From NCBI RefSeq assembly GCF_010093305.1, contig NZ_PDWS01000014.1:1-64000 (forward strand): a DNA stretch of 64,000 nucleotides. Direction: 5' to 3'. A program made the translations under genes and the position numbers. Shown here piece by piece: positions 5-63,415 of the stretch. How positions within the stretch are numbered: position 1 is the stretch's first letter; the number at the start of each line of letters is the position of its first letter. The notes beneath the pieces were generated by a model. It did no database searches. It was not told where the DNA came from and saw only the letters and a list, made by a program, of their open reading frames with translations. This DNA comes from Pseudoxanthomonas sacheonensis (GTDB taxonomy: Bacteria > Pseudomonadota > Gammaproteobacteria > Xanthomonadales > Xanthomonadaceae).

Positions 5-68
5 AATGGTCCCCCGCAAGTCTACGCTATCCTCTTCGTAGGCAGCGTCAGATGGGTATAAGAGACAG
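5..68 (+). other. Residual Illumina/Nextera adapter (not genomic)
   Basis: Bases 36-68 match the Nextera read-1 transposon adapter with two mismatches, ending in the 19-bp mosaic end (one G for T) at 50-68. Immediately upstream, 28-35 read TATCCTCT, which I recall as the i5 index N503/S503, and 21-27 resemble the end of the P5 primer (CTACGC for CTACAC). Bases 5-20 are a poorer match to P5. The order P5, index, adapter is that of a library molecule, so these bases come from library construction and the true genomic sequence starts at about 69. The mismatches suggest a low-quality or untrimmed read end. Confidence 0.93.
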
Positions 69-40033: not shown

Positions 40034-40474
40034 ATGCGCAACAAATCGATCGCCACACTGCTTGCCCTGCCACTGCTGGCGTTCTCCATGTCGGCCATGG
40101 CCGCCGATGCCACCGGGCGCTGGAAGACCATCGACGACAAGACCGGCAAGGTGAAGTCGATCGTCGAGATCTCCAAGGCCGCCAACGGCAACTACAGCGG
40201 CAAGGTGGTCGAGGTCCTGTATTCCGAACGCGGCCCCAACCCGGTCTGCGACAAGTGCTCGGGCAGCAACAAGAACAAGCCGGTCAAGGGCATGACCATC
40301 CTCTGGAACCTGAAGGCCGACGGCGCCAACGAATGGTCCGGCGGCACCATCCTGGATCCGGCCAACGGCAAGACCTACAAATCCAAGGCCGAACTGCAGG
40401 CCGGCGGCAACAAGCTGGATGTCTCGGGCTGTATCGCCTTCATCTGCCGCGCGCAGACCTGGGTCCGCGAATAA
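40034..40474 (+). CDS. DUF2147 exported protein
   Basis: 146 residues. Signal peptide (ends SAMAA) then the DUF2147 domain: TGRWKTIDDKTGKVKSIVEI, GKVVEVL, and GMTILWNLK. Cysteine pairs VCDKC and GCIAFIC could form disulfides in the periplasm. Homologues are widespread in Xanthomonas and related genera; no function has been proven. ATG 40034 follows GGGAGGGG. An intrinsic terminator follows directly. Confidence 0.88.
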   Translation: MRNKSIATLLALPLLAFSMSAMAADATGRWKTIDDKTGKVKSIVEISKAANGNYSGKVVEVLYSERGPNPVCDKCSGSNKNKPVKGMTILWNLKADGANEWSGGTILDPANGKTYKSKAELQAGGNKLDVSGCIAFICRAQTWVRE

Positions 40475-40504
40475 CGCGACAGCCTCACCGCAACGACAGT
40501 CCCT

Positions 40505-40538
40505 TCCGGCCCGGCTCAAGTCGGGCCGGAGCTTTTTT
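40505..40538 (+). terminator. Intrinsic terminator after DUF2147 gene
   Basis: Stem TCCGGCCCG/CGGGCCGGA with a short loop, followed by GCTTTTTT. It lies 31 bp past the DUF2147 stop and before metG, so metG probably has its own promoter. Confidence 0.9.
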
Positions 40539-40596
40539 GCGGGAGGGCTTTTCGCGGCGCATGCGATAATCGCCGGATCGCCCCACGAACTCCGCC

Positions 40597-42678
40597 ATGA
40601 CCCGCACCGCCCTCGTCACCACCGCCCTGCCCTACGCCAACGGCCCCCTGCACCTGGGCCATCTGGTCGGCTATATCCAGGCCGATATCTGGGTGCGCGC
40701 CCGGCGCCTGCGCGGCGACACCGCCTGGTTCGTGTGCGCGGACGACACCCATGGCACGCCCATCATGCTGGCCGCCGAAAAGGCGGGAGTGACCCCGGAA
40801 ACCTTCATCGCCGGCATGCAGGCCTCGCACGAGCGCGACTTCGCGGCATTCGGCGTGGCTTTCGACCATTACGATTCGACCCACTCGGCCGCCAACCGCG
40901 AGCTCACCGAGACGTTCTACGCGCGGCTGGAAGCCGGCGGCCACATCGCGCGCCGCAGCGTGGCCCAATTCTTCGATCCGGAAAAAGGCATGTTCCTGCC
41001 GGACCGCTACATCAAGGGCATCTGTCCCAACTGCGGCACGCCCGACCAGTACGGCGACAACTGCGAGAACTGCGGCGCCACCTACGCGCCGACCGACCTG
41101 AAGGAACCCAAATCGGTCCTGTCCGGCGCGACCCCAGAGCTGCGCGATTCGGAGCACTATTTCTTCGAAGTGGGCCGCTTCCAATCGTTCCTGCGCGAGT
41201 GGATGGCCGGCGATGTGGCACTGTCCGGCGTCAAGGCGAAGCTGATGGAATGGCTGGACGCCGAGGGCGGCCTGCGCGCATGGGACATTTCCCGCGATGC
41301 ACCGTATTTCGGCTTCGAAATTCCCGGCGCGCCTGGGAAATATTTCTACGTCTGGCTGGATGCGCCCATCGGTTACCTGAGCAGTTTCCGCAATCTGTGC
41401 GCGCGCAACGGCATCGATTTCGAATCGCACCTGATCGCCGGCACCGAAACCGAACTGCACCACTTCATCGGCAAGGACATCGTCAACTTCCACGGCCTGT
41501 TCTGGCCGGCGGTGCTCAAGGGCGTGGGTTTCCGCGCACCGACGCGCCTGCACGTCAACGGCTACCTGACCGTGGACGGCGCCAAGATGTCCAAGTCGCG
41601 CGGCACTTTCGTCATGGCCCGTACTTTCCTCGACGTTGGTCTGGAGCCGGAAGCATTGCGCTACTACTACGCCGCCAAATCTTCCGGCGGTGTCGACGAC
41701 CTTGATCTCAACTTGGGCGATTTCATCGCGCGCGTCAACGCGGATCTGGTCGGCAAGTTCGTGAATCTGGCCAGCCGCTGCGCCGGCTTCATCGAAAAGC
41801 GATTCGACGGGCGACTGGCCGATACGCTGCCCGATGCTGCGATGTATGCGCGCTTCGTCGCAGCACTGGCGCCGATCCGCGAGGCTTACGAACGCAACGA
41901 CCCGGCCGGCGCGATCCGCCAGACCATGGCGCTGGCCGATGAAGCCAACCGCTATATCGACGACAACAAGCCGTGGGTCATCGCCAAGCAGGACGGCGCC
42001 GATGCGGAGCTGCAGGCAGTGTGCACGCAGGGCCTGAATCTGTTCCGTGTGCTGGCCGCCGCCCTGAAGCCGATCCTGCCGCATACCTCGACCCAGGCCG
42101 AAGCCTTCCTCGCCGCACCCGTCTATGCCTGGCAGGATCTGGACACGCCGCTATTGGCGCACGCGGTCAAGCCCTACTCGCCGCTGTTCACCCGTATCGA
42201 CCCGAAACAGATCGACGCCATGACCGAAGCCTCGAAAGACACCATGGGCGCACCGCCGGCCGCGTCACCGGAAACCAGACCGGCCGCACCCAAGGAAGAC
42301 GCCAAGAAAGCGACGGCCGCCACTCCAGATGGGACCAAGACGAACGCTTTCGTCTCGATGGAGGATTTCGCCAAACTCGACCTGCGCATTGGCAAGGTGG
42401 TCGCCTGCGAGTTCGTGGAAGGCTCCGACAAGCTGCTGCGCTTCGAGCTGGAGGCGGGTGAGTTGGGCAAACGCCAGATCTTTTCCGGCATCCGGGCGAG
42501 CTACGGCGAGCCCGGAAAGCTGGTGGGCCGCAGCGTGGTCTTCATCGCCAACCTGGCGCCGCGCAAGATGCGCTTCGGCACCAGCGAAGGCATGATCCTG
42601 TCGGCAGGCTTCGACGGCGGCGCGCTGGCCCTGCTGGACGCGGACGATACCGCCGAACCCGGGATGCCGGTTCGCTGA
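40597..42678 (+). CDS. metG: Methionyl-tRNA synthetase
   Basis: 693 residues, normal for the dimeric bacterial enzyme. HLGH (HIGH) in [16 protein letters not shown] in [10 protein letters not shown], four zinc Cys in [18 protein letters not shown] and a C-terminal EMAP/Trbp111 tRNA-binding domain (about 580-693, [12 protein letters not shown]). A Pro/Ala/Lys-rich linker near 555-585 joins the parts. It charges initiator and elongator tRNA-Met. It is followed 22 bp later by the ferredoxin gene. Confidence 0.98.
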
Positions 42679-62734: not shown

Positions 62735-63415
62735 ATGGGCGTGCGGCTACCCCGCTGGGTCTGGATCGGGGCAGGTGCGCTCGCGTCGGTCGCCGGGATG
62801 GTGAACGTGGTGGGTTTCCTCGGTTTCGAGCATCAGGCCGTGACTCACCTTACCGGCACCACATCGTTGCTGGGGGCTGCGATAACCCATGGCGACGCGC
62901 GTGCGGTCTGGCACCTGCTGGGCATCACGGCGGCCTTCATGATCGGCGCGGCGCTGAGCGGGGTGATCGTGCAGGACAGCGCGTTGCGGCTGGGCCGCCG
63001 TTATGGCGTGACGCTGGCGCTGGAATCCCTGTTGCTATTCGCCGCCATCCCTCTGTTCAAGCAACAGCAGATTTTCGGAGCTCTTCTGGCCGCGATGGCG
63101 TGCGGACTGCAGAACGCCATGGCGACGACCTACAGTGGGGCAGTGGTGCGCACGACGCACTTGAGCGGCATGTTCACCGACCTGGGCATCGGCCTGGGGC
63201 ATGCATTGCGCGGAATGCCGCTACCCAAACGACGCCTGATGCTAAGCGCGCTGATCATCGCCGGCTTCCTGGCCGGCGGCGTGGCGGGTGCCTGGCTATT
63301 CCGACGCCTGGGCTATGATGCGTTGCTGGTGCCAGCGACGCTGACCGGCCTGGTTGGTTTCGGTTATGCCGGTTATCGCCAATGGCGATCGATGCGGCAG
63401 GATATCGGCGCCTAG
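62735..63415 (+). CDS. DUF1275/YoaK-family membrane protein
   Basis: 226 residues with six predicted membrane helices. It has the family pattern AGMVNVVGFLGFEHQAVTHLTGTTSLLG (in pieces) and GLQNAMATTYSGAVVRTTHLSGMFTDLG. Function is unknown; members look like small transporters. It starts 5 bp after the phoH2-like stop. Confidence 0.88.
   Translation: MGVRLPRWVWIGAGALASVAGMVNVVGFLGFEHQAVTHLTGTTSLLGAAITHGDARAVWHLLGITAAFMIGAALSGVIVQDSALRLGRRYGVTLALESLLLFAAIPLFKQQQIFGALLAAMACGLQNAMATTYSGAVVRTTHLSGMFTDLGIGLGHALRGMPLPKRRLMLSALIIAGFLAGGVAGAWLFRRLGYDALLVPATLTGLVGFGYAGYRQWRSMRQDIGA

Follow-up and report, generated by a model that had tools for sequence, protein, structure and literature searches.

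The first 68 bases of contig C5 are almost certainly read-through into the i5 side of a Nextera adapter, and genomic DNA begins at about base 69. The window, by which we mean the whole stretch of 64,000 bases that was analysed, begins where the contig begins, at its base 1, and the contig is one of 44 in an assembly of 4,036,284 bases (genome G000). In the ungapped register, and all on the + strand, the foreign bases comprise a degraded P5 tail (1-27), the i5 index TATCCTCT (28-35), the 14-base Nextera linker (36-49) and the 19-base mosaic end (50-68), lying at the very end of the contig and pointing inward. The references for this alignment were the Nextera i5-side adapter, S503 and a set of 18 i5 indices. 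Against them the index, which we take to be S503, matches at 8/8 positions, with 4/8 for the runner-up among the 18, while the linker matches at 13/14 and the mosaic end at 18/19; together the three parts give 39/41, in order, across bases 28-68. Alignment to an adapter and index list was the check suggested by an earlier note on this DNA, and the outcome bears out its reading of a Nextera adapter with an i5 index at the contig start, both in position and in the order of parts, as well as its naming of the index as N503/S503. The note had also placed two mismatches in the mosaic end. Their number was right but not their location, as one falls in the mosaic end (T to G at base 55) and the other in the linker (C to A at base 40); reading outward, the substitutions nearest the insert are thus A>C, then G>T.

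The P5 tail is the weakest part of the match and consists mostly of read noise. Its 13/27 identities were equalled or bettered by 237 of 20,000 random 27-mers of the window, and taken by itself it is unconvincing, unlike the other three parts. A P5-like tail starting at base 5 had been proposed. The tail stands, weak as it is, but a start at base 5 is not required, because the ungapped register begins at base 1 (bases 1-27 correspond to P5 positions 3-29) and the AATG at 5-8 meets the P5 start only if gaps are allowed. The remainder of the adapter is highly specific to its place: both the mosaic end, at up to three mismatches, and the string from index to mosaic end occur once in the window and in 0/100 dinucleotide shuffles. 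In local alignment the whole adapter scores 39 at the contig start and elsewhere at most 12 on the + strand (covered to about base 62,900) and at most 11 on the - strand.

The mosaic end is derived from the ends of Tn5, of which it is an engineered version, and the site could in principle be the end of a natural or laboratory Tn5/IS50-type transposon residing in the genome. We regard this as so improbable as to be negligible. Over 19 bases the site differs from the mosaic end at one position and from the natural IS50 ends at four and five, and it has the linker and an i5 index attached. The genome has no second mosaic end within two mismatches, and its sole match at three mismatches is itself an adapter remnant, at the start of contig C18. 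The neighbours of the site are a tRNA-Leu gene and phage-like genes, with no transposase among them. Neither a natural outside end nor a natural inside end was found at the site, and a mate-pair junction adapter was ruled out, from knowledge of the kits, by the attached linker and index.

Adapter remnants also occupy two further contig ends in this assembly. Contig C18 starts with 168 foreign bases containing a damaged adapter copy: the outermost ~98 bases are noise (38 A, 30 G, 19 T and 11 C in read orientation), followed by a P5-like stretch, the index TATCCCCT (7/8 to S503) and a linker and mosaic end matching at 28/33. The last ~83 bases of contig C16 carry a more damaged copy (linker and mosaic end 26/33), with an index matching S503 at 6/8 and S502, just one match behind, at 5/8. 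S503 is therefore the best index at all three ends, and this agreement between three ends of a single assembly is the best evidence that the assembly itself offers for the adapter. With the adapter parts and their place at the contig end, these S503-type remnants uphold the view that the first 68 bases are not biological.

All 88 contig ends of the assembly were fetched, of which 24 (from 12 small contigs) consist only of N, leaving 64 readable. The adapter is present at 3/64 of these; at the remaining 61 the best match is 18/33, and the best outward-facing match at any contig end is 19/33. No P7-side remnant was found in the genome, where the P7 query matched nothing but the mosaic end common to both adapter sides, at C5:50-68. 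Weak mid-contig matches in C39 and C22 were rejected as adapters after their sequences were inspected. Two pairs of contig ends (C2/C44 and C10/C12) share overlaps of 127 bases, the length that de Bruijn assembly at k=127 would leave, and none of the other fetched contig ends shares C5:70-129. At the end of C41, G+C is 0.49 in the last 120 bases against 0.70 farther in, and the best adapter match there is 17/33, which is no match.

The DNA inside the junction reads as one arm of a phage-like element (69-2768, + strand), and bases 69-2770 match only themselves in G000. The arm encodes a DHH phosphoesterase (793-1740; PHROG E 1.8e-108) and a DNA methyltransferase (2018-2536; PHROG E 3.3e-68). 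Closest to the junction is a small cysteine-rich open reading frame (71-220, + strand), called from its reading frame and with no Pfam or PHROG match, whose start is cut off. This bears on the warning that genes called in the first 68 bases would be false, which finds little to apply to, as no open reading frame of at least 20 amino acids with an ATG, GTG or TTG start overlaps 1-68. The artefact has the opposite effect, namely the loss of a start. At the far side of the arm, a putative 18-base attachment core (2769-2786, no strand assigned) is identical to C14:41288-41305 (blastn at E 1e-4, comparing 400 by 4,001 bases) and lies at the 3' end of the gene for tRNA-Leu (gag; 2771-2855, - strand, by ARAGORN), beyond which lie secG and tpiA. 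On contig C14 the same 18 bases lie between a phage-type integrase (40189-40656) and nuoA (41489-41779). It is likely that a single element has inserted at tRNA-Leu, between secG and nuoA, so that C5 carries one arm, C14 the other, and the assembly gap falls within the element.

The start of C14 has features of its own. C14:1-150 is poor in G+C (0.36 over the first 120 bases, 0.63 deeper in the contig) and contains a long T tract; its best adapter match, at 14/33, is no match. This is possibly another tail of read noise, at the end that would face the C5 start inside the element. Among viral contigs, eight translated queries from the first kilobases of C5 found relatives of the DHH protein alone (80/80 of the best 80 of 152 matches), so the sequence lost to the left of base 69 was not identified in this way.

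Remnants of the same kind are found across the genus. A scan of 38 genomes with the intact 70-base adapter (E<=1e-3) gave 20 hits in 8/38 genomes, of which 19 were aligned (G001:C79 was left out). All 19 sites lie at a contig end and point inward, with 45-190 foreign bases; at each, linker plus mosaic end (33 bases) contain two to seven errors. The 18 sites other than that on C5 resemble it in parts, order, orientation and contig-end position. Among the weaker matches listed, some begin at contig base 1 or 13 (G043:C105, G001:C18 and G019:C2) and may be further remnants. Where a genome has several sites, one index is best throughout (16 sites in five genomes): S503 at the three sites of G000 and the five of G002, S502 at the three of G043, S517 at the three of G001 (one of them tied with S516) and S507 at the two of G041. 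Five of these 16 indices match at only 4 or 5 of 8 positions or are tied, counting G001:C69 once; the weak ones are G002:C20 (4/8), G002:C33 (5/8), G001:C69 (5/8) and G041:C9 (4/8), and at G000:C16 the runner-up trails by a single match. The genomes with a single site have S503 (G021 and G053) or S517 at 5/8 (G019) as their best index.

Three relatives (G002, G021 and G053) also have S503 as their best index, so a sample cannot be told from its i5 index by itself, and G000 shows no i7 index. One might therefore suppose that the molecule was chimeric, or foreign through index hopping, in which case the DNA from base 69 onwards would be foreign too. We consider this very improbable, given that this DNA is single copy up to base 2770 and continuous with tRNA-Leu, secG and tpiA, that the C14 integrase next to nuoA, with the 18-base identity, would suit the element's second arm, and that one i5 index is common to three contig ends.

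The read-through of an adapter from the genome's own library is consistent with what is published about such a library. The draft of P. sacheonensis DSM 19373 is described as a Nextera XT library with dual indexing, sequenced on a MiSeq (2x250) and assembled with SPAdes 3.10, with 4,036,514 bases in 44 contigs and an N50 of 165,077 (PMC9065704). G000, with 44 contigs and an N50 of 165,077, is 230 bases shorter than that total, and its contig number, N50 and near-equal length fit its being this draft; the shortfall of 230 bases could reflect trimming at submission. A Stenotrophomonas paper by the same group states that adapters flagged by NCBI were taken out by hand (PMC4785145). Although this source concerns another series of genomes, such removal of flagged copies offers a reason for the survival of error-rich ones.

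We propose that a fragment from the Nextera XT library was too short for the read, and that read 2 would have continued past the insert into mosaic end, linker, i5 index (S503) and P5, all in reverse complement, with accuracy largely gone by P5. The order of insert, mosaic end, linker, index and P5 is as expected for the tail of a reverse-complemented read 2 on the contig, and the largest foreign tail, at 190 bases, is below 250 and so compatible with 250-base reads. Left untrimmed, the adapter may then have overhung an assembly gap inside the integrated element, presumably one of coverage, where the assembler would have kept the overhang as the first bases of the contig. Copies of this kind would persist by being error-rich enough to escape adapter screens.

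Over the 19 pooled sites, errors amount to 49/361 in the mosaic end, 29/266 in the linker, 29/152 in the index and 243/487 in P5. The sharp increase at P5 is in keeping with a read tail that was failing, though the choice of sites on linker and mosaic end and the ungapped counting both inflate it. A steady outward rise in errors had been expected, but none was seen within the first 33 bases (linker and mosaic end) of the pooled sites. The 107 pooled substitutions are a broad mix (A>C 22, T>C 18, C>A 15, T>G 11 and G>T 6), and hence give no clean Illumina signature, though one was expected.

The adapter at the start of C5 is an ordinary artefact, of an already well-known kind of assembly contamination. 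Contamination of public drafts with Nextera or Nextera XT adapters resembles it in parts, order, orientation and position at the contig end. A nearly exact pattern, built from the linker and mosaic end and leaving one position free, occurs in at least 119 genome-contig stretches and at least 120 viral-contig stretches in a public scan from which G000 was possibly excluded. These hold at least 248 sites, and in all 248 listed the position left free is the unaltered T. Among the matches listed, the outer side of the adapter extends for at most 70 bases at 237/248 sites and for 74 to 2,158 at the other 11; 181 of the listed sites are long enough to include an index, which is exact to one of the 18 indices at 172, with 21 being S503. 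As the pattern was nearly exact, these sites are uninformative on the frequency of damaged copies. In a draw from the class, 8/369 genomes (G000 included) match at up to three mismatches of 28, with 0 for the reversed control. One genome of the class survey, G410, has 168 adapter sites (89 forward and 79 reverse) and is apparently almost untrimmed.

The significance of the finding is one of data hygiene only: bases 1-68 of C5, the 168 bases at the start of C18 and the ~83 bases at the end of C16 should be trimmed, and nothing should be inferred from them. With hits in 8/38 genomes of the genus and 8/369 of the class, it seems worth inspecting contig ends with some tolerance for errors, and an exact search with the intact mosaic end would overlook the C5 site. 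We are evenly divided on a broader proposition, namely that adapter screening at submission removes clean adapters but leaves a hidden class of error-rich read-through tails where the contigs of type-strain drafts end, some of them extended by roughly 100 more bases of pure read noise, and that the decayed index in these tails still hints at which genomes share a library series.

Phage records also bear on the window. Their DNA matches to bases 1-2770 fall in the methyltransferase stretch only in 17/19 cases, and in the other 2/19 on the adapter itself. A Nextera adapter lies near the start of the phage record MT836720.1 (46-93), and another, with the index TTTCCTCT, lies at the end of the record of Vibrio phage JSF17 (KY883640.1, 125125-125173), which is titled a complete genome.
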